Assembly (NCBI GenBank): GCA_034520215.1
Contig: JAXHNR010000001.1
Location: 1,106,560 to 1,170,559 of the forward strand
DNA: 64,000 nucleotides
Direction of reading: 5' to 3'
DNA from: Candidatus Krumholzibacteriota bacterium
GTDB lineage: Bacteria > Krumholzibacteriota > Krumholzibacteriia > Krumholzibacteriales > WJIX01
The stretch's first letter is position 1, and every line of letters starts with the position of its first letter. Under the pieces are notes generated by a model, which saw only the letters and a program-made list of their open reading frames with translations, did not search any database and was not told the origin of the DNA. The translations under genes and the position numbers were made by a program. Positions 20,727 through 31,176 of the stretch are shown here, one piece after another.

Positions 20727-21054
20727 ATTAACAGTTGGAGTTCCCTCTGAAAATTCGGCAAGTATTGTAATAACATTTCGAGATACAATCAGTTATCAGG
20801 ATTTGTAAGTGGAATAGGGCTTTCATTGCTTATGAGTGCGGCTGATTGATATTTTCAAAACCCTCCGGAGGGCGAGCGGGCAAGGATTTCTGGCCCGAAG
20901 GGGCAGAAAGAGCGAGCCCGAGGCGCAGAGCCAGCGGTTTCCTCGGCCGGCGAGAAACCGACCACGATTTTGAAAATATCAATCAGCCGCATACTGTTAC
21001 AAATCATCGACTGCCTTATAGGTTGTAAAAATTGGGGAAACTCCACATTAACAG
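20727..21054. mobile_element. Structured repeat element, subfamily A, copy 1, with 8-bp target duplication
   Basis: A 312-bp element (20735-21046) flanked by perfect 8-bp direct repeats ATTAACAG at 20727-20734 and 21047-21054. Terminal inverted repeats are TGGAGTTCCC and its counterpart GGGAAACTCCA. A 24-bp perfect inverted repeat (20837-20860 with 20968-20991) encloses a 107-bp core. Core hairpins: 20887-20896 with 20901-20909, and 20935-20945 with 20951-20960. Long arm left, short arm right. Short ORFs crossing it in both strands are not credible genes: they read through the inverted repeats. It sits between divergent operons, so it could affect either promoter. Confidence 0.9.
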
Positions 21055-21129: not shown

Positions 21130-22071
21130 TTGATAAGAGTAAAAAGAATATCTAAGTTCTACGGTTACAAGCCCGCGGTAAGCGATCTGACTTTCAACGT
21201 GGAGAAGGGTGAAATTCTCGGATTCCTTGGGCCGAACGGAGCCGGAAAAACAACCACGATGAGAATGCTGACATGCTATTTACCTCCAACCTCCGGAACC
21301 GCTGAAATATTCGGGCGTGACATTATTAGAGATTCCATGCATGTACGGCGAATGATAGGTTATTTGCCGGAAAAAGCGCCTTCTTACCATGAATTGAACG
21401 TTCACGATTACCTGGAATTTTCAGCGAAAATGAAGAGTATACCAAAAAACAAAATCAAGCAATCAATTGACTATGTAATAGAAAAGTGCGGCCTTACCAA
21501 CGAATTTAAACAGACGATTGGTAATCTTTCAAAAGGTTACCAGCAGAGAGTTGGTCTCGCGCAGGCAATTATCAATGATCCGGAATTTTTGATCCTCGAT
21601 GAACCTACCATAGGCCTTGATCCAAAACAGGTTCTCGAGATAAGAAAATTGATAAAATCGATCGGTTCCCGTACGACCGTTCTACTAAGTAGCCATATCC
21701 TCCCTGAAGTCAGCCAAATATGCGACAGAATAATTATAATAAACAAAGGCAAACTGATCGCGGTCGATTCACCGGAAAACCTTAGAAAGAAATTGAAAAG
21801 TTCAGCATCAACAATAATTAAACTCAGGAAAACTTCAGCTGCTAAGGATATTTCCGATATTCTTCTTGAAATCGGCGGTGTGCTTGATGTCACGGAAACT
21901 GACGGTACGGGGAACACCGTTATAATAACTGTTAAATCAAAACCAGAGAAAGATCTTAGAGAGAAAATGGCGGCTGAAATTGTACAAAATGAATTCCCTC
22001 TTCTTGAAATATACAACGAAGAATTGACTCTGGAAGATATATTCATGGAACTTGTGACGACGGAAAATTAA
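21130..22071 (+). CDS. ABC transporter ATP-binding protein, GldA-like
   Basis: 313 residues. Walker A GPNGAGKTT at ~37, the ABC signature LSKGYQQR at ~137, Walker B FLILDEPTIGLDP near 157 and the switch histidine in LLSSHILPE. The ~90-residue C-terminal extension is usual for GldA/NatA-like ATPases. The start is TTG at 21130 with GAGG and A-rich spacing upstream. It is directly followed by an ABC-2 permease (ATG abuts the stop), a GldG-like protein and a DUF4340 protein. In gliding Bacteroidetes GldA-F-G supports motility; similar sets occur widely in non-gliding bacteria, so a motility role must not be assumed. Substrate unknown. Confidence 0.88.
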   Translation: MIRVKRISKFYGYKPAVSDLTFNVEKGEILGFLGPNGAGKTTTMRMLTCYLPPTSGTAEIFGRDIIRDSMHVRRMIGYLPEKAPSYHELNVHDYLEFSAKMKSIPKNKIKQSIDYVIEKCGLTNEFKQTIGNLSKGYQQRVGLAQAIINDPEFLILDEPTIGLDPKQVLEIRKLIKSIGSRTTVLLSSHILPEVSQICDRIIIINKGKLIAVDSPENLRKKLKSSASTIIKLRKTSAAKDISDILLEIGGVLDVTETDGTGNTVIITVKSKPEKDLREKMAAEIVQNEFPLLEIYNEELTLEDIFMELVTTEN

Positions 22072-22842
22072 ATGAGTAAAATAATCGCAATTTATAAACG
22101 AGAGATGAAATATTATTTCCAGTCGGTCGCGGCGTATGCTTCTATTTCTGTCTTTCTCGCGATATCCGGTTACTTCTTTTCCAGTATTTTCAAATATTAT
22201 AATTTTCTTTCTCTCGAAATGAGAAGATCGGCTGATGTATCTTCTCGACTTAATATTATTGACGGAATAACCAGGCCTCTTCTGGGTAATATCAGTATTC
22301 TTATCCTTTTTACTGTACCGATACTAACTATGAGGCTCCTGTCGGAAGAGAAGAAACAGGGCACTTTTGAACTTCTTATGACTTATCCCGTCAGTGAAAG
22401 TTCTGTGATTGCGGGTAAATTCCTATCAGCTCTAACGATATTTGCCGTCATGATCTTCGGCACTCTTCTATACCCCCTGCTCCTCATTATCTACGCCGAA
22501 CCTGAAATAATGCCGATCTTTTCCGGGTATCTCGGACTTTTCCTGGTTGGCGCCACTTTCATATCAATGGGTTTATTCTTCTCTTCTCTATCTGAGAATC
22601 AACTTGTATCAGGCATATTAACACTTGGAACCGCATTGTTTTTCCTTTTGATAGGCTGGCTCGCGCCCATTCTTGGACCTGATCTTTATCATTCTATATC
22701 TCAGCTTTCAATTCTTTTCCATTTCGAACCGTTCGCTAAGGGGATAATCGATACAAAGGATATTTCATATTACGTATTGCTCACTTCGTTATTCCTCTTT
22801 ATGAGCAAGAAATCCCTTGATTCAACCAGGTATAAGACATGA
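22072..22842 (+). CDS. ABC-2 type permease, GldF-like
   Basis: 256 residues, about six transmembrane helices. It opens with KIIAIYKREMKYYFQSVAAY, the cytoplasmic amphipathic helix typical of GldF/NosY-type permeases, and contains RLLSEEKKQGTFELLMTYPVSE, the conserved R-x-x-x-E-E-x-x-x-G-T-x-E-L-L coupling motif that contacts the ATPase. Its ATG immediately follows the ATPase stop, and it overlaps the GldG-like gene by 4 nt (ATGA type). In the family it forms the membrane pore for the upstream ATPase. Confidence 0.88.
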   Translation: MSKIIAIYKREMKYYFQSVAAYASISVFLAISGYFFSSIFKYYNFLSLEMRRSADVSSRLNIIDGITRPLLGNISILILFTVPILTMRLLSEEKKQGTFELLMTYPVSESSVIAGKFLSALTIFAVMIFGTLLYPLLLIIYAEPEIMPIFSGYLGLFLVGATFISMGLFFSSLSENQLVSGILTLGTALFFLLIGWLAPILGPDLYHSISQLSILFHFEPFAKGIIDTKDISYYVLLTSLFLFMSKKSLDSTRYKT

Positions 22843-24401
22843 GAAAATATTCGGCTGCTTTAAGAATTATATCCGTCATATTGATTGCTGTTAGTGCAAC
22901 ACTCTACACGATATTCGCGAGAAGCGAAACTATCATTTTTATAACTTTTTTTACAGGCATTGTCATTCTCATTTCTAATTCTATATTCAGATATTATCAA
23001 ACAGGAATAGAAGGACACAAGCGCGCGGCTCGCTCCAGAACAGCTATTACCCTCTCGGTAATAATGTATATCATTATTATCGTTTTACTACAGGTAACAT
23101 CAGCCCGCCATAATATCAAATACGATACGACGGCTAACAAGAGATTCTCCCTTTCTCCGCAAACAAAGAAAGTGCTCGGAGGCATTAATGAAGAAATTAA
23201 GATCACTTGCTTCTTTAGTGAAACTGCTGATGAAAAATCAGCCCATGAGGATCTCCTCAAAGAATACACCTATTTAAACAACAACATAAAATACCAGTTT
23301 ATAAACCCCGACAGAGATCCAATGAGCGCCCGACGCTATGGTATAGATTCTTTTGGAATAACAGTTGTGGAAAGTGCAAGGGGACGGGAAAAGATCAAAC
23401 AAATATCAGAAAACAATATAACAAACGCCATATACAGGGCGACACACATAAACAAGAAGAATATTTATTTCACCGTCGGACACGGAGAGAAATCTGTAAA
23501 GAACACGGAAAATAACGGGATCAGTGCTTTAGCCCAAGCCCTGAAATCTGAAAATTATAGAATAAAGGAGTTGCCGCTGGCCACAAGCACAGCTGTTCCA
23601 TCCGACTGTGAAGTATTAATTGTCGCTGGTCCCACGAAAGATATACTTGCTGCTGAAAAAGATCTCATAGCTTCGTATTTGAAAAGTGGAGGAAACGCTC
23701 TTTTCCTCGTCGACCCGGTTATATCCCTTCCCCGTATAGCCGATATCGTTTCGTTTTATGGGATAGAAATTGACAATAATGTAATAGTCGACAGACTTGG
23801 TGTATTGACAAGCGGAACTTATCTGACTCCGGTTATAAACAGATACAGCGACCATCCTATTACAAAAGGTTTTAAATATTTCTCTTTCTTTCCACAGTCA
23901 CGCTCAATATCGATATCACATGATCCCGGCGAAAAATATAAGGTCAATGCCATTTGCTTTACCAACAAAAAAGCATACGGAGAGAGAGACATAGACCTGA
24001 TTCTAAAGGGAAAGACACGATTTGACGAAGGAACAGATAAACCCGGACCCCTTTCTCTCGCGGCGACCTCCAGAGTTCTGACTGACGGAAAATCCGCCGG
24101 ATTTACAAAACAAAACCGAACCCCGAGGATCGCGGTCTACGGCGACAGCGATTTTCTGACAAATAAAATAATTAATCTTTATGGAAACAGAGATCTGATT
24201 ATGAACACCCTTAGCTGGCTTTCCAGAGAAAAAAATCTCGTTTCAATTCGACCTGAAAATCAATTAGTCCAACCCGTTCTGCTGACTATGATAGAGGGAA
24301 GACTGGTTTTCTGGCTATCTGCTGTAGTTATGCCGGCTCTTATAGCAATTATAGGTTCAATAACTCTCGCGCGTAGGAGAAGAAAGTCTGAAAGCAATTG
24401 A
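22839..24401 (+). CDS. GldG-like auxiliary ABC component
   Basis: 520 residues. Three hydrophobic N-terminal segments (to ~residue 90) precede a large extracytoplasmic domain of the ABC_transp_aux/GldG type: ANKRFSLSPQTKKVL near 105, then VGHGEKS near 215, LIVAGPTK and SGGNALFLVDP, which are landmarks of the family. A last transmembrane helix near the C-terminus (LSAVVMPALIAIIGSITLA) is followed by a basic tail. It follows the permease with a 4-nt overlap. Probably binds the exported substrate or the cell wall; exact function unknown even in the family. Confidence 0.85.
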   Translation: MRKYSAALRIISVILIAVSATLYTIFARSETIIFITFFTGIVILISNSIFRYYQTGIEGHKRAARSRTAITLSVIMYIIIIVLLQVTSARHNIKYDTTANKRFSLSPQTKKVLGGINEEIKITCFFSETADEKSAHEDLLKEYTYLNNNIKYQFINPDRDPMSARRYGIDSFGITVVESARGREKIKQISENNITNAIYRATHINKKNIYFTVGHGEKSVKNTENNGISALAQALKSENYRIKELPLATSTAVPSDCEVLIVAGPTKDILAAEKDLIASYLKSGGNALFLVDPVISLPRIADIVSFYGIEIDNNVIVDRLGVLTSGTYLTPVINRYSDHPITKGFKYFSFFPQSRSISISHDPGEKYKVNAICFTNKKAYGERDIDLILKGKTRFDEGTDKPGPLSLAATSRVLTDGKSAGFTKQNRTPRIAVYGDSDFLTNKIINLYGNRDLIMNTLSWLSREKNLVSIRPENQLVQPVLLTMIEGRLVFWLSAVVMPALIAIIGSITLARRRRKSESN

Positions 24402-24405
24402 TCTT

Positions 24406-25302
24406 ATGAAAATAAAATCAGTATATGTTCTTCTTATTATTTTGTTCATCTCTACCCTATTCGTATTCTCGGTTTATCGACCTACCGGAAGTGATGATAA
24501 TTATAGGGATCAAAGGCGGCTTCTATCAACAAATAACCCCCTGGATATCACTAAGTTAGTTTTTAAAAAGAGTAAAGAAAAGAGGATTGAGATTGAACAA
24601 AGTAATTCCGGATGGATTATAACATATCCGATAAAAACAAAGGGATCGAAATTCTCAATAGATCTTATGATCAAAAGTGTTTTTGCCAGCCGCCTGAGAG
24701 CTGTTTTCCCCAATGTTCAGGATCTTTCACTATACGGCCTTGAAGATCCGGAATGTCAAATTCTGCTCTTTTCGAAGAATTCATCTAAACCGGACACGCT
24801 TCATATCGGAGATAAGACGCCCACCAGCAAAGAATGCTATTTCAGAATTAATTCTTCAAATGATGTGATTCTCTCGCCTGAAATTTCAATACTACTTAAA
24901 GAAAAAACCCTTTTCCATTTTAGAAATAAAAAGCTTATCGATATTGAAAACTACAATATCAATAAACTCACCTTCAGATCATCTAAAGGGGAGTTTACAT
25001 TAAAGAAATCAAATAACGACTGGAATTCTGATGATATTTCCGTTCCTTTAAAAAACGTATCTATAGACAATTTTCTGGAAACACTACCCAAAGCTCTTAT
25101 CTACAAATTCCCCTCTGAGAATAATGATAACCTCGCGGCATTCGGACTTGAAAACCCCGACTATTCAATTACGATTGGAACCCTTGATGAAGATATAACA
25201 ATATACTTCGGAAACCGCGTGAGCGATAAGATTTACGCAAGAAAAAGCAACCGAGCCGGAGTACTTCTTATAAAGAGCGATATCCTGACAGTTTTTAATT
25301 GA
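24406..25302 (+). CDS. DUF4340 protein
   Basis: 298 residues with an N-terminal membrane anchor (VYVLLIILFISTLFVFSVY). The rest is an extracytoplasmic beta-rich domain with paired repeats: LSLYGLEDPECQILLF and LAAFGLENPDYSITIG, the G-L-x-x-P motif typical of DUF4340, each followed by an H/Y-I/F-G-x-x-x-S/T strand. DUF4340 genes regularly follow gldG-like genes, as here (4 nt after the previous stop). It completes the ABC operon. Function unknown beyond this association. Confidence 0.8.
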   Translation: MKIKSVYVLLIILFISTLFVFSVYRPTGSDDNYRDQRRLLSTNNPLDITKLVFKKSKEKRIEIEQSNSGWIITYPIKTKGSKFSIDLMIKSVFASRLRAVFPNVQDLSLYGLEDPECQILLFSKNSSKPDTLHIGDKTPTSKECYFRINSSNDVILSPEISILLKEKTLFHFRNKKLIDIENYNINKLTFRSSKGEFTLKKSNNDWNSDDISVPLKNVSIDNFLETLPKALIYKFPSENNDNLAAFGLENPDYSITIGTLDEDITIYFGNRVSDKIYARKSNRAGVLLIKSDILTVFN

Positions 25303-25393: not shown

Positions 25394-25721
25394 TTCCAAG
25401 TAGTGGAGTTCCCTCTGAAAATTCGGCAAGTATTGTAATAACATTGCGAGATACAATCAGTTATCAGGATTGGTAAGTGGAATAGGGCTTTCATTGCTGA
25501 TGAGTGCGGCTGATTGATATTTTCAAAACCCTCGCCGAGTGGCGAGCGGGCAAGGATTTCTGGCCCGAAGGGGCAGAAAGAGCGAGCCCGAGGCGCAGAG
25601 CGTACAATTCCCTCGCCGGGGGAATTGACCACGATTTTGAAAATATCAATCAGCCGCATACTGTTACAAATCATCGACTGCCTTATAGGTTATAAAAATT
25701 GGGGAAACTCCACTTCCAAGT
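25394..25721. mobile_element. Structured repeat element, subfamily A, copy 2, with 8-bp target duplication
   Basis: A 312-bp element (25402-25713) flanked by perfect 8-bp direct repeats TTCCAAGT at 25394-25401 and 25714-25721. Terminal repeats are GTGGAGTTCCC and GGGGAAACTCCAC. The perfect 24-bp stem is 25505-25528 with 25635-25658. Core hairpins: CTCGCC/GGCGAG (25531-25536 with 25541-25546), TTTCTG.../...CAGAAA at ~25557-25577, and CAATTCCC/GGGAATTG (25605-25612 with 25620-25627). Arms differ from copy 1 at only about five bases, but the last hairpin and the first one have quite different sequences with pairing kept. Confidence 0.9.
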
Positions 25722-25774: not shown

Positions 25775-26932
25775 ATGCCGATACGATCCGATGAATATAT
25801 CAAGGGAAAGAAACACCCCGCGGAAGTTCCCATATCCCGCCGAACTTTTCTTATGGCAACTGGTTCTCTAATAGCTTCAGGAACTTTAGGAATACCTTTC
25901 GGCAGCACATTTGCTGAAAACGCTGATTTCGAAGCCCGGTATTATGAAATAGCAGGCAGCGATAAGGTGCGCTGTCTTCTATGTCCGAGAGGATGCGTAA
26001 TATCAGAAAACAAAAAAGGTTACTGCGGTGTCAGAAAGAACATAGGAGGAAAACTCTTCACGCTTACGTATGGCCGGGCATGCTCACTACATTTTGACCC
26101 TATTGAAAAAAAACCGTTCTTTCATGTTCTTCCGGGGACAAAATCATTTTCTCTTTCAACTGTCGGATGTAATCTAGAATGTAAATTCTGCCAGAACTGG
26201 CAAATATCCCAATCATCACCGGAGATGATAGAAACTAAATGGCGCTCACCGGAACAAATTGTAAAAAAGGCTGTTTCAGTCAAAGCTCCATCTATTTCCT
26301 TCACATACGGTGAACCTGTTGTATTTATAGAATACGCGCAAGATATAGCAGAAGAAGCTGCTTCGAAGAATATAAAATCATTCGTTGTTACAAATGGTTT
26401 CTACAGGCAGAAGCCTCTTGAAGACCTCTGTAGAATAACTGACGCCATTAAGATTGATCTCAAATCATTTACGGATAAATACTATCGCGATATCTGCGGC
26501 GGAAAACTAAAACCTGTTTTAGACTCTATTGTTAAAATAAGATCCGAAGGTGTATGGCTTGAAATAGTTTACCTGATGCTTCCCTCCCTAAATGATTCTC
26601 CTTCTGAAATACGAGATATGGCGCGCTGGCTGGTCAGAAACGTCGGTGAAGATACACCTCTGCACCTTTCAAGATTCTTTCCGCAGTACAAACTTAAAGA
26701 TCTTCCGCCAACTCCCGTGTCATCCCTCGAGACCGCATACAAAATATGCAGAGAAGAGGGGTTAAAATTCGTTTATATCGGAAATGTCCCAGGTCACAGA
26801 ACTGAAGACACCTTCTGTCCCGCCTGTTCAAAACCGATTATAGAAAGAAGAGGTTACAATGTAAATGTACATATTAATAATGGGCATTGCGCTTTCTGCA
26901 GAGAACCTATTCCGGGAATATGGGAGGTTTGA
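25775..26932 (+). CDS. AmmeMemoRadiSam-type radical SAM protein with a twin-arginine signal
   Basis: 385 residues. The radical SAM cluster motif is TVGCNLECKFCQNW (CxxxCxxC near residue 129), preceded by a CLLCPRGC...GYCGVR region and followed by a C-terminal CPAC and HCAFCREP pair, the arrangement of the AMMECR1-associated, PflA-like radical SAM family. Uncommon for this enzyme class, residues 21-45 form a twin-arginine signal: ISRRTFLM, then a mildly hydrophobic stretch ending near FGSTFAEN. SD GGAGGG precedes the ATG. Seven bases after its stop comes the MEMO-AMMECR1 gene. The reaction is not known. The signal implies export of a folded, cluster-loaded protein, which is inference. Confidence 0.85.
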   Translation: MPIRSDEYIKGKKHPAEVPISRRTFLMATGSLIASGTLGIPFGSTFAENADFEARYYEIAGSDKVRCLLCPRGCVISENKKGYCGVRKNIGGKLFTLTYGRACSLHFDPIEKKPFFHVLPGTKSFSLSTVGCNLECKFCQNWQISQSSPEMIETKWRSPEQIVKKAVSVKAPSISFTYGEPVVFIEYAQDIAEEAASKNIKSFVVTNGFYRQKPLEDLCRITDAIKIDLKSFTDKYYRDICGGKLKPVLDSIVKIRSEGVWLEIVYLMLPSLNDSPSEIRDMARWLVRNVGEDTPLHLSRFFPQYKLKDLPPTPVSSLETAYKICREEGLKFVYIGNVPGHRTEDTFCPACSKPIIERRGYNVNVHINNGHCAFCREPIPGIWEV

Positions 26933-26938
26933 TTAATA

Positions 26939-28498
26939 TTGAAATATTTGAAGCTATTGATATTAACATTTATTATTCTATTAGTCCAAAGCAGATCCAG
27001 CAGCATGGAAGAAAAGAGGGATAAAATGCAAAAATCAGTTCGTAATCCAATTGTAGCGGGCTCATTCTATCCCGCTGATTCCACCATACTTAGAAATATG
27101 ATAAAAGGGTTTTTCGAGGAAGCTGACACGGGTAGATTTAGTGGTAAAATCTTATCTCTTGTTTCCCCGCACGCTGGATACATCTACTCCGGCTCCGTTG
27201 CCTCTCACGGTTACAAAATAATTACAGGACAAAATTACGAAACGGTTGTCGTCATTTCCCCCAGCCACACGGACCTCTTCGATTACTCCTCCATCTTCAA
27301 TGGCACAGCATATCGAACACCCCTGGGTGATATACCTGTCGACAGGGAAATCGTTGATAAAATTACATCTTACGATGATAATATACGCATAGACACTAAA
27401 GGTCACATAAAATCAGCTAAAGGCAGAGGTGAGCATTCATTGGAAGTTCAGCTCCCTTTCCTGCAAGTTGCTCTTAATGAATTCAAGTTGGTCCCTGTTG
27501 TAATGGGAAATCAAAATAGCAAAAATATTGAATCTCTTGCCGAAGCACTCATCGATGCTCTCAGGGGAAAAAATTTTCTTATTGTCGCAAGCACCGATCT
27601 TTCTCATTTTCATAACAGCAACGAGGCTGACCGGCTGGACAGCACCTTCATAGGCCATCTTGAAAAGCTTGACACTGATGGCTTAGCAAAATCCCTCGAT
27701 TCAGGAGTTGCTGAAGCATGCGGCGGAGGCCCTGTCCTGGTTGCTTTAATGGCCTCTATCGGATTAGGCGCTGACAAATGCTCCATTCTTAAACATGCTG
27801 ATTCCGGAGATGTATCCGGTGATACGAGCAGTGTTGTAGGTTATGTATCCGCGGCTATTTTTAACGATAATGAAAAAGAAGAAACCGCGCTTTCGGACGA
27901 GAAACACAGTAATAATCCAGCTGCCGTCACTGAGGATCATTCTCTCTCTCAAGATGATAAGGTATTTCTTCTGAAGCTTGCCAGGGAAGTTATCAGAACA
28001 AAATTATCAGGTCATAAATTAGATATTGAAATCCCTTCTTCTCCTATTATCAAAGAGATGCGGGGCGCTTTCGTTACACTTAAAAAGAGGGGCCGGTTAA
28101 GAGGCTGCATAGGATATATTGAAGCAGTAAAACCTCTAGTCGATACCATTTCTGATATGGCCGAATCGGCGGCTTTCAACGATTACAGATTCCCTCCCGT
28201 CAAAGCCGGTGAGATCTCAGAGCTCAGCATTGAAATATCAGTGCTCAGCCCTATTACAGAAATCGATGATCCTTCAAAAGTAAAAGTTGGACAGCATGGA
28301 CTGATTATAAGCCGAGGTGCAAAAAGAGGATTGCTTTTACCCCAGGTTCCCGTTGAATGGGGATGGGACAGAGAAAAATTCTTGAACCAGACATGCATCA
28401 AAGCAAATCTTCCGGAAGAAGCCTGGAAAAGCCCCGACACAAAAATAGAAATTTTTACGGCTGATGTTTTTTCAGAAGAGGAATTTGATCTTCACTGA
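26939..28498 (+). CDS. MEMO1-AMMECR1 fusion protein with N-terminal signal
   Basis: 519 residues. An N-terminal hydrophobic segment (LKLLILTFIILLVQS) looks like a Sec signal or anchor. Residues ~35-305 form a MEMO domain: VAGSFYPAD, SPHAGYIYSG and ISPSHTDLF, whose histidines match the metal-site histidines of the dioxygenase-like fold. After an acidic linker, residues ~340-519 form an AMMECR1 domain with the conserved RGCIGYIE. The usual set is separate AMMECR1, MEMO and radical SAM genes; here two are fused and both products carry export signals. The start is TTG with GGAGG 11 bases upstream. It ends 20 bp from a convergent gene. Biological role unknown. Confidence 0.87.
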   Translation: MKYLKLLILTFIILLVQSRSSSMEEKRDKMQKSVRNPIVAGSFYPADSTILRNMIKGFFEEADTGRFSGKILSLVSPHAGYIYSGSVASHGYKIITGQNYETVVVISPSHTDLFDYSSIFNGTAYRTPLGDIPVDREIVDKITSYDDNIRIDTKGHIKSAKGRGEHSLEVQLPFLQVALNEFKLVPVVMGNQNSKNIESLAEALIDALRGKNFLIVASTDLSHFHNSNEADRLDSTFIGHLEKLDTDGLAKSLDSGVAEACGGGPVLVALMASIGLGADKCSILKHADSGDVSGDTSSVVGYVSAAIFNDNEKEETALSDEKHSNNPAAVTEDHSLSQDDKVFLLKLAREVIRTKLSGHKLDIEIPSSPIIKEMRGAFVTLKKRGRLRGCIGYIEAVKPLVDTISDMAESAAFNDYRFPPVKAGEISELSIEISVLSPITEIDDPSKVKVGQHGLIISRGAKRGLLLPQVPVEWGWDREKFLNQTCIKANLPEEAWKSPDTKIEIFTADVFSEEEFDLH

Positions 28499-28517: not shown

Positions 28518-30755
28518 TCAGTTGTCAGACAAATAAGCTTTCTTCCATTTTTTTGTCAGCAGCAGCATACTGGCGATGTGTATAAAAACAAAAAGAGCTA
28601 TAGCGCCGGGGCTTCCCGAGAATGGATAAATAAATATTCCGCCCAGGATACCTCCAACACAGGCACCGAACATATCCCACGCGTAAAATACCGCCGGCTG
28701 CTGATTTGGTAACCTGTCGAGGGCTGAAGAAACAACAACTCTGTAAAATGTCCCCGTAAAAAAACCTCCAACGAAAGAAGCGGCAATAAAAGCAATCGAA
28801 CCTGTTATTATGCCTATAGCAATCCTGCCTATAACTAACAGCCAGATAATATAGAAGAGAGAAAATACAATGAAAGCGGCGTGTATACCCTGCGGATCTC
28901 TCGAGAATTTAAAAGGGGTTTTGTAAGTACTCCAGGTCCCGATAGATATACCAGCCATAAAGAAAGCTGTAAGAAAAACAATCCCGTTGTACAAATAACC
29001 TGAAAATGACTGGTAAGCTAAAAGCAGATTAATCTGAAAGAGAAAACTCGTCAACCCTACCCCCCATACATCCAATTTAGCAGCAACTTCCTCTCCGGGG
29101 ATCAGGAAAATCAGGGCAATAATGACAGCTCCGGCAAAAACGGGAAACCACTTGCTAACCGCGGTAATTTCGCCGAACCGCTCTGTTAAGTTTAACCCCT
29201 TTTTTTTTAACTCCAGAAACATTTCGTAAGCGGTTAAAATCGGGATGAGATCACTATTTACATCAACATCAGAGAGATCGTTAATCTTTGAAGATAAGAC
29301 ATTCAGTCTATCTTCTGAGAATCTGTATGGAATATAATCCATGTTTATGAATTTTGTATCCAATCCGCGCCTTTTCAGATTATCCAATATTTCATTCGCG
29401 CTTACTTTTTTTTCGGATCCGATAAAATGAACTACCGTTCCCGGCATAAGACTTACACCGCTAAAAACAACATCAAGGGACTTCTTGATCGTTCGCAATA
29501 CCATTGACTGAGCGTCCGAGATGAAATTCTCGGAGGAAGAATGCGAAATTGAAAAAATTCCGTCAGGCATAAGCGCGCTCCTTGCCGTATGGAAGAATTC
29601 CTTTGTATAGTACCTGTTTAATTCGAGGTTCAATGGATCCGGAGTATTAACAATAATAACATCGTATTTGTAATTTGTTGATTTTAAAAACAATCTGCCG
29701 TCACCTACGAAATAATTCACTCTATCATCTTCAGTAAAATCTTCTATATCTAAGTTATCTTTCTTTGATATCTTAAGTACCATCTTCATAAGACGGTCAT
29801 CAAGCTGAACACAATCTACACTTTCGACAGAATTATGTTTAAATATCTCCTTTATTTCGCCCGCCAATCCTCCACCTATAATTAAAACCCGTCTTGGATT
29901 CTTGTGAGAAAGGAGAGGAATATGAACAACCTCTTCAATGTTCTGAATATCGGGAATAGTAAAATATCTTGAACCGCCGGAGAAATAAGAGACAGCTTCG
30001 CCGTTTTGAACAGCTGCAATTTCGCCGTATCTGGATGAACCAAAACCTCTTATATTAAATTCAGGGAAAAGCCAGTTTATACTTCTATAATCAAGTTTAT
30101 TGGAGAAAAACAGCATCCCCGATCCCAATATGATAATAAATATTATTCTACACCAGAACCTGCCTTCCATTCTAAAAGGACGTAGAATAACCGTTATGAT
30201 TATAAAGGAGATTATCAATGAAATTTCAAACTGAGTAAAAAATTCTAACAGTACAAAAGAGAACAGCAATCCTCCCACCACTGAACCTGCCGCTTCCAGT
30301 ATATAGACCCATGAAACACCAGTTGAGATAACTCCTGTTTTCTCTCCCCACCATTTACTTGCCGCGTTGTATATTAATCCATTAGCGAAGGCAACGGGAA
30401 ACATAGCTAAAACACAAAACAGGATAGATTTGAAAAAGGGGGGCATTTCTCCGGGGGAAGTAACGAGTAGCCCTCTTCCGTACCTAATAAACAGAATAGT
30501 CGCTGGAAATATTAATGCGGCGAAAACTATCAATCCCCGAAAAGCTGAAAACCGTTTGGCGAATATGCCTTTGAACAGCCTCCCGCCTTTAATTCCCCCC
30601 ACGCCAACCCAAAGAAGCCAACTTGAAATTAATAGACTTACAACAAATTCAGTCCCACTGAAAAGCCCAAGCATCTCTCTTATGAAAATAGCCTGGGAGC
30701 ATATAGCATAAGCCCCTACGGCAAGCAGATCACGTTTTTTGATTATTGTCTTCAC
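28518..30755 (-). CDS. Membrane-embedded spermidine-synthase-like protein (catalytic residues changed)
   Basis: About 745 residues: six to seven N-terminal transmembrane helices, a soluble domain (~220-470) with an aminopropyltransferase/Rossmann fold, and roughly seven C-terminal helices. The soluble part has VLIIGGGLAGE where spermidine synthases have G-G-G-D-G-G, and VIIVNTPDP where the catalytic D-S/T-x-D-P is expected; so Asp is replaced by Asn. It may have lost aminopropyl transfer and act on another substrate. The start is uncertain: an ATG at 30833 would overlap the upstream gene by 62 nt, so I chose GTG 30755, though without a clear Shine-Dalgarno. Probably co-transcribed with nadB and the Minf_1886-like gene. 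Confidence 0.75.
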   Translation of the reverse strand: MKTIIKKRDLLAVGAYAICSQAIFIREMLGLFSGTEFVVSLLISSWLLWVGVGGIKGGRLFKGIFAKRFSAFRGLIVFAALIFPATILFIRYGRGLLVTSPGEMPPFFKSILFCVLAMFPVAFANGLIYNAASKWWGEKTGVISTGVSWVYILEAAGSVVGGLLFSFVLLEFFTQFEISLIISFIIITVILRPFRMEGRFWCRIIFIIILGSGMLFFSNKLDYRSINWLFPEFNIRGFGSSRYGEIAAVQNGEAVSYFSGGSRYFTIPDIQNIEEVVHIPLLSHKNPRRVLIIGGGLAGEIKEIFKHNSVESVDCVQLDDRLMKMVLKISKKDNLDIEDFTEDDRVNYFVGDGRLFLKSTNYKYDVIIVNTPDPLNLELNRYYTKEFFHTARSALMPDGIFSISHSSSENFISDAQSMVLRTIKKSLDVVFSGVSLMPGTVVHFIGSEKKVSANEILDNLKRRGLDTKFINMDYIPYRFSEDRLNVLSSKINDLSDVDVNSDLIPILTAYEMFLELKKKGLNLTERFGEITAVSKWFPVFAGAVIIALIFLIPGEEVAAKLDVWGVGLTSFLFQINLLLAYQSFSGYLYNGIVFLTAFFMAGISIGTWSTYKTPFKFSRDPQGIHAAFIVFSLFYIIWLLVIGRIAIGIITGSIAFIAASFVGGFFTGTFYRVVVSSALDRLPNQQPAVFYAWDMFGACVGGILGGIFIYPFSGSPGAIALFVFIHIASMLLLTKKWKKAYLSDN

Positions 30756-30771
30756 ATCGGCAATTCTATTT

Positions 30772-31176
30772 CTATCTCTTAAAATATTCCTCTTCAAAAA
30801 TCTTCTTAAAATTCGCTCCGTTTTTAAAATCATCTATTGAATCTTCAGCTGTCTTTGTTAACAAACCTGCTTCAATAAGATTAAAGACAATATTACCAAA
30901 ATCTGTTGATTTCTTTATACCCCAGAAATTAAAAACCTCTTTTGACATAGGTCCAAACTGTTCTATAGCGTAATCTGTTATTCCAGCGAGTAATTCCTTT
31001 CCGGAAATGTGCCTTACAGACGAAAGTGCACTTATAGTTCTTTCAACTGCTACAATAACAAAGATATAGGCGTTCACCTTATATCTCGGGTCAACTTTAC
31101 TAATCTCTTCAACAACCTTAAGGTGTTCTTCAATATCCACTTGAGCTTCCTTTAAAAAATTAGGTTCTATCCTCAA
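30772..31176 (-). CDS. Minf_1886 family (TIGR04138-type) protein
   Basis: 134 residues, soluble, no signal. The sequence matches the uncharacterised Minf_1886 family of Planctomycetes/Verrucomicrobia and related genomes: a helix with Y-I-F-V-I-V-A-V-E-R-T, then R-H-I-S-G-K-E-L-L-x-G-I, A-I-E-Q-F-G-P-M-S, W-G-I-K-K-S-T-D-F-G-x-I-V-F-N-L-I-E-A-G-L and a D-S-I-D-D-F end. It starts 13 nt after the nadB stop. No function is known. Family assignment is from recall of these motifs. Confidence 0.7.
   Translation of the reverse strand: MRIEPNFLKEAQVDIEEHLKVVEEISKVDPRYKVNAYIFVIVAVERTISALSSVRHISGKELLAGITDYAIEQFGPMSKEVFNFWGIKKSTDFGNIVFNLIEAGLLTKTAEDSIDDFKNGANFKKIFEEEYFKR

Follow-up and report, generated by a model that had tools for sequence, protein, structure and literature searches.

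A putative extracytoplasmic form of the AmmeMemoRadiSam system with leader-bearing radical SAM and MEMO-AMMECR1 proteins

Memo-Ammecr1 systems with a radical SAM (S-adenosylmethionine) domain were reportedly described by Burroughs et al. in 2019, and human relatives of both MEMO and AMMECR1 are linked to disease. Radical SAM enzymes are regarded as cytoplasmic because they require SAM and strong reductants. That Memo, AMMECR1 and radical SAM proteins are associated is already known (PMC7159879). Here, we report an analysis of a 64,000-nucleotide stretch from a Candidatus Krumholzibacteriota bacterium (GCA_034520215.1, contig JAXHNR010000001.1, positions 1,106,560 to 1,170,559 of the forward strand; hereafter, the window), in which an AmmeMemoRadiSam radical SAM protein (rS) and a MEMO-AMMECR1 fusion encoded directly downstream both begin with predicted export signals. 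The pair is probably an extracytoplasmic version of the AmmeMemoRadiSam system, a reading drawn from features of the sequence, namely the leaders and their conservation, the catalytic motifs, and the gene association.

Leaders of the radical SAM protein and its partner

The rS gene (25775..26932, + strand) starts with ATG and encodes 385 amino acids that match TIGR04337 with 362.7 bits, above the curated cut-off of 220 (NCBIfam profile search), and contain the superfamily domain PF04055 (Radical_SAM, 78.9 bits). The CxxxCxxC motif of the radical SAM cluster (C132, C136 and C139; 26168..26191, +) occupies invariant columns of the rS alignment, which also displays extra cysteine motifs at the N- and C-terminal ends. 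The N-terminus, PISRRTFLMATGSLIASGTLGIPFGSTFAENA, has RR at residues 22-23, then a hydrophobic stretch and an AxA-like end, bearing out the twin-arginine signal proposed in an earlier, sequence-only reading of this DNA. The putative twin-arginine translocation (Tat) signal covers residues 1-47 (25775..25915, +), with cleavage placed after A47 by our own estimate. Given the single TatC encoded in the genome (218.6 bits), the RR motif and the hydrophobic stretch mark rS as a predicted Tat substrate. The predicted structure of rS is confident (pLDDT 85, pTM 0.83), with the leader, residues 1-48, disordered. Because the other Tat-type rS of the same order carry the same N-terminal motif and the leaderless paralogues of those genomes do not, the motif is beyond chance.

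After a gap of six bases follows the gene for the MEMO-AMMECR1 fusion (26939..28498, +; 519 amino acids, outer start TTG), which matches TIGR04336 with 272.3 bits (cut-off 26) and TIGR04335 with 185.4 bits (cut-off 99), along with PF01875 and PF01871. The hydrophobic signal that had been noted here likewise holds: the predicted Sec-type (general secretory) leader, about residues 1-22 (26939..27004, +), has a hydropathy of 2.94 in the coding frame versus 0.22 and 0.98 in the other frames, and an in-frame leader is kept in relatives. Both extensions could in principle have been frames read upstream of the true starts. We reject this explanation, since Shine-Dalgarno sites precede both outer starts (GGAGGG with 8 bases upstream of the rS ATG, GGAGGT with 10 bases upstream of the TTG) and the extensions are kept in orthologues.

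The MEMO domain of the fusion, delimited by profile and alignment, spans residues 35-306 (27041..27856, +), with invariant H78, H110, D220, H223 and C261; across 38 aligned fusions, the invariant histidines and cysteine align with metal-binding residues of human MEMO1 chains. The AMMECR1 domain (residues 345-511; 27971..28471, +; PF01871, 190.1 bits) contains the LRGCIG motif (residues 387-392; 28097..28114, +), of which L387, R388, C390 and G392 are invariant in the same alignment. The fusion had been taken to support a direct physical complex of the two domains. Joint action is indeed suggested by the fusion itself, but a fixed interface between MEMO and AMMECR1 is not: the model combines confidently predicted domains with a disordered linker (residues 314-331) and a pTM of 0.61.

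The leaders extend far beyond the window. Matches to rS above the cut-off are present in 73 of 80 genomes of the phylum, and 92 rS loci from these genomes, a part of all rS matches there, were assigned by rule to a Tat leader (29) or none (63). Genomes of the window's order typically encode one Tat-type and one leaderless rS. The second rS of the window's own genome (L002, protein P0001, 330 amino acids) has no leader and lies about 1.3 kb after tatC, between genes that by eye are polyprenyl-synthase-like and RsfS-like; the order tatC, polyprenyl-synthase-like gene, leaderless rS (L002, L005) is retained in related genomes. Among the best 80 of 568 confirmed candidates from a public-genome scan with the rS alignment, ranked by similarity to the window rS, 56 were labelled Tat and 7 Sec-like by rule; by eye, 11 of the 17 unlabelled loci have leaders with RR, KR or RK that escaped the rule. 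By record title, these 80 loci come from Acidobacteria, KSB1, Latescibacterota, Aminicenantes, Neomarinimicrobiota, Zixibacteria, Planctomycetota, Omnitrophota, Elusimicrobia, Deltaproteobacteria, Chloroflexi and others. In a quick tree of the core regions of 171 rS, computed with leaders excluded and with SH-aLRT (approximate likelihood ratio) support rather than bootstrap, the window rS groups with 108 others in one clade (109 rows, SH-aLRT 95) of which 96 have Tat leaders, 8 Sec-like leaders and 5 none, and the 62 leaderless rows fall outside it; the N-terminal extension is thus kept in orthologues. In the cultured Desulfoferrobacter suflitae DRH4 (L164), for example, an rS with an RR leader adjoins a leader-bearing fusion. 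One Tat label given by rule (L080) was put down to a reading frame extended beyond the true start, and the tree counts this protein as leaderless.

The partner genes tell the same story. An in-frame hydrophobic leader precedes 58 of 59 MEMO genes adjoining the exported rS clade, compared with 8/59 and 2/59 when the same DNA is read in the other two frames, which rules out chance hydrophobicity; fusions next to a leader-bearing rS are leader-bearing too, so the signals co-occur in the family. Six of the MEMO leaders contain a lipobox-like motif. A natural contrast comes from two genomes (G074 and G079) that encode a separate leaderless MEMO-AMMECR1 fusion alongside the leader-bearing one, and leaderless MEMO or AMMECR1 genes occur in several further genomes of the phylum; an additional candidate leaderless fusion (L210) was dropped, the gene being cut by a contig end. 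MEMO or AMMECR1 is present in 65/109 exported-clade loci versus 2/63 other loci. The window's genome also encodes a second, divergent MEMO-like protein (L004, 1273-2451; 392 amino acids; PF01875, 70.9 bits) with a leader-like N-terminus and without an AMMECR1 part. In a planctomycetal locus (L152, 4568-6868), one frame of 767 residues runs from a leader through MEMO and a shortened AMMECR1 to rS, and is either a genuine triple fusion or a product of misassembly; MEMO-AMMECR1 rows are only 12-19% identical to it (alignment A4), alignment A3 placed AMMECR1 residues on rS columns, and the AMMECR1 part of A5 is sparsely filled.

An exported rS might no longer be a radical SAM catalyst, serving instead as an iron-sulfur redox or structural component that receives its cluster in the cytoplasm before export. 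Such a protein would have no need of SAM outside the cytoplasm, and exported rS are associated with iron-sulfur and NapGH-like proteins, described below. Yet the catalytic motifs are as well kept in the exported as in the leaderless proteins, C...C..C[QR]N in 108/109 and 62/62 and TYxEP in 107/109 and 52/62, respectively, and the solved fold closest to the rS model is the pyruvate formate-lyase (PFL) activating enzyme with bound AdoMet (3cb8, Foldseek TMt 0.82). We consider the loss of catalysis distinctly unlikely.

Neighbouring genes, haem c and electron supply

Convergent with the fusion gene lies a gene for a membrane protein, SpeE-TM (28518..30833, - strand; PF01564, 104.3 bits), in which a spermidine-synthase-like domain is flanked by two blocks of hydrophobic segments. 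The arrangement of rS, MEMO-AMMECR1 and opposite-strand SpeE-TM recurs in 13 of 18 loci of the window's order, and the remaining five are truncated by contig ends, either inside the fusion or no more than 0.7 kb from its AMMECR1 domain. With the reservation that flanks were uneven (3 kb for most leaderless loci, 6 kb for named loci), SpeE-TM accompanies 37/89 exported-clade loci versus 1/52 others, a DUF362 protein 32/89 versus 0/52, and NapG/NapH-like polyferredoxins 6/89 versus 0/52. Several of the DUF362 neighbours have RR leaders and others have none. SpeE-TM scores 117.2 bits against PRK03612 (NF002956), below the cut-off of 472, and so falls outside that family as defined. Loop charges in 19 SpeE-TM proteins tentatively put the SpeE domain outside, a weak indication, sensitive to the helix count. 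From this association we recognise SpeE-TM as a predicted third member of the system, often joined by a DUF362 protein. A further neighbourhood cluster (cluster 3) resembled antisense shadow frames and was dropped.

The polyferredoxins match the NapG and NapH models below the cut-offs, and no NapGH-like ferredoxin was found next to the window genes. In one rS subclade (L038, L039, L042, L043, L044, L157 and L142, the last identical to L039 in the rS tree), the Tat extension contains a CxxCH haem-c motif together with further histidines; the window rS is without CxxCH. Covalent attachment of haem c happens outside the cytoplasm. The haem-c motif on exported rS and the nearby NapGH-like ferredoxins suggest a source of electrons, newly recognised here, for the predicted exported enzymes.

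The same motif bears on the possibility that the leaders merely anchor these proteins at the membrane, or work poorly, with the active domains facing the cytoplasm. Export and cleavage are predictions, and certain leaders have, by eye, weak cleavage sites. A Tat or Sec leader, however, points the remaining protein outward even if uncleaved, the lipobox-like leaders in six genes speak against a cytoplasmic orientation, and CxxCH within the rS extension makes sense only as a haem c site outside the cytoplasm. Cytoplasm-facing domains are accordingly very unlikely in our estimation.

Exported radical SAM proteins may not be confined to one family: another radical SAM-like protein, which begins with a Tat-like leader and is PflX-related by eye, adjoins the exported rS in four loci (L141, L148, L155 and L174; PF04055, 42.4 bits in L174). 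Other proteins seen near exported rS are an FMN-binding protein with a 4Fe-4S domain (L159, 4257-6005) and DUF6599 proteins (L113, 2025-2921; L123, 4013-4939). Upstream of the window rS, an operon (21130-25302) comprises GldA-, GldF- and GldG-like genes for an ABC transporter, all matching under the equivalog cut-offs, and a DUF4340 protein. Between them, just upstream of rS (25505-25660), lies a 156-base dispersed repeat with 24-base inverted ends, a second copy of which occupies 20837-20993. Among the matches listed in the 2.6 Mb genome, there are 40 near-full copies with 90-100% identity (from 101 initial candidates), and the repeat looks like a family of miniature inverted-repeat transposable elements.

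An inner start in the fusion gene

Within the fusion gene, an inner in-frame ATG (M30, MQKSVRN; 27026..27028, +) that is conserved in the order is a candidate second start; it is preceded by GAGG at 27016-27019, and initiation there would yield a leaderless product. One MEMO-AMMECR1 gene might then give two products, an exported one from the outer start for the Tat-type rS and a leaderless one from the inner start for the cytoplasmic rS paralogue. The window's genome has two rS and one AMMECR1, and in 14 genomes of the order two rS exceed the cut-off and a single AMMECR1 match is present; one gene may therefore serve both compartments. The inner ATG stands at the boundary of mature MEMO in all 20 scored genes of the order, and the mean anti-Shine-Dalgarno energy is -6.7 kcal/mol at this position, compared with -2.7 at 109 other internal ATGs and -9.4 at the outer starts. 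Where a separate leaderless fusion exists, as in G074 and G079, the leader-bearing gene lacks an ATG near the domain, and inner ATGs with strong energies are found independently in L119, L105, L106 and L029.

Several observations pull the other way. Shuffling of synonymous codons gave about the same energies (sum -129.3 versus -116.3, standard deviation 9.5, p 0.08), so these shuffles give no sign that the inner Shine-Dalgarno site is under additional selection. A convincing inner start is absent from six genomes that combine two rS with a single AMMECR1 (G075 and those of L133, L135, L146, L156 and L163), and three genomes (those of L029, L106 and L165) have one despite two AMMECR1 matches. 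The strong sites of L105, L106 and L029 are about 14 bases upstream of the ATG, beyond the usual spacing, and the genes of the window's order are related and hence not independent. We lean slightly against the two-product scheme, which in any case refines the extracytoplasmic reading and does not replace it. The earlier suggestion that the fusion might act outside the cytoplasm is retained for the predicted leader-bearing form, but a cytoplasmic form may arise as well via the inner start.

Proposed mechanism and comparison with described systems

Actual export, complex formation, the supply of SAM and reductant, and the substrate are what we infer in the following scheme. The rS protein would fold and acquire its iron-sulfur clusters in the cytoplasm and then exit, folded, via Tat. 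The MEMO-AMMECR1 fusion would exit via Sec, apparently as a lipoprotein in some lineages, and would join rS, SpeE-TM and, in many cases, a DUF362 protein on the outside of the cell membrane. At this site, rS would act like the PFL activase, reductively cleaving SAM and abstracting a hydrogen atom. Its target would be held by the fusion, at the invariant LRGCIG loop of AMMECR1 or, in the case of a small substrate, at the MEMO metal pocket, a placement that we regard as unlikely in its particulars. The membrane would supply the electrons, via NapGH-like ferredoxins or, in one subclade, via haem c borne by rS itself.

A number of points weigh against an extracytoplasmic system. No reservoir of SAM is known outside the cytoplasm, and the reducing power of quinols is low for a radical SAM cluster. 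One member of the haem subclade (L165) is without CxxCH, and one of the 59 MEMO genes (L160) fails the leader rule. Cytochrome c assembly proteins are encoded in 5/5 searched genomes with CxxCH-containing rS and in the window's genome, as well as in 9/14 controls, and are too widespread to discriminate. MEMO or AMMECR1 was not found in 44 of the 109 exported-clade loci, many of which are short stretches. The named rS loci were picked for their resemblance to the window rS, all leaderless rows belong to a single phylum, and leaders were called by simple rules and by eye rather than by a trained predictor.

The fullest version of the proposal combines radical SAM chemistry at the outer face of the membrane in many phyla, fed by quinol-ferredoxin or by built-in haem c, with a two-start MEMO-AMMECR1 gene that serves both compartments in the window's order; taken whole, it is rather unlikely. 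If true, such chemistry would depend on SAM being supplied outside the cytoplasm, and the SpeE-like membrane protein is a candidate supplier. A broad and conserved exported clade, if true, would break the cytoplasm-only rule and raise the question of how SAM and electrons are supplied outside. It would also provide a new handle on the molecular function of MEMO and AMMECR1, since the possible substrates of an exported MEMO-AMMECR1 would be limited to those present outside the cytoplasm.

Several described systems resemble parts of this arrangement. No publication on an exported radical SAM enzyme was found in the literature searched, which comprised one library. The pyruvate formate-lyase activating enzyme (3cb8, 8fo0) provides the nearest fold to the rS model and the nearest PDB sequence, but identity is 18% (Foldseek alignment) and rS adds the terminal cysteine motifs and the leader. 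The ferredoxins of the NapGH quinol dehydrogenase have relatives near the exported rS in six loci, which differ in that they fall below the NapG and NapH cut-offs and are fused in one protein. The polyamine aminopropyltransferase PRK03612 shares with SpeE-TM a SpeE domain between two hydrophobic blocks, whereas part of the SpeE-TM family has a degenerate glycine-rich motif (L113, L124). What is shared with the systems of Burroughs et al. is the association as such, as cited in PMC7159879. Closest of all is the AmmeMemoRadiSam system itself: the three domains of the window are adjacent and above the cut-offs of TIGR04335, TIGR04336 and TIGR04337, with the catalytic and LRGCIG motifs kept. The differences are the Tat leader on rS, the Sec-type leader on the fusion, SpeE-TM and, often, a DUF362 neighbour. 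Judged by these sequence features, the predicted exported form is new relative to the known system and wider than the sequence of a single window showed.

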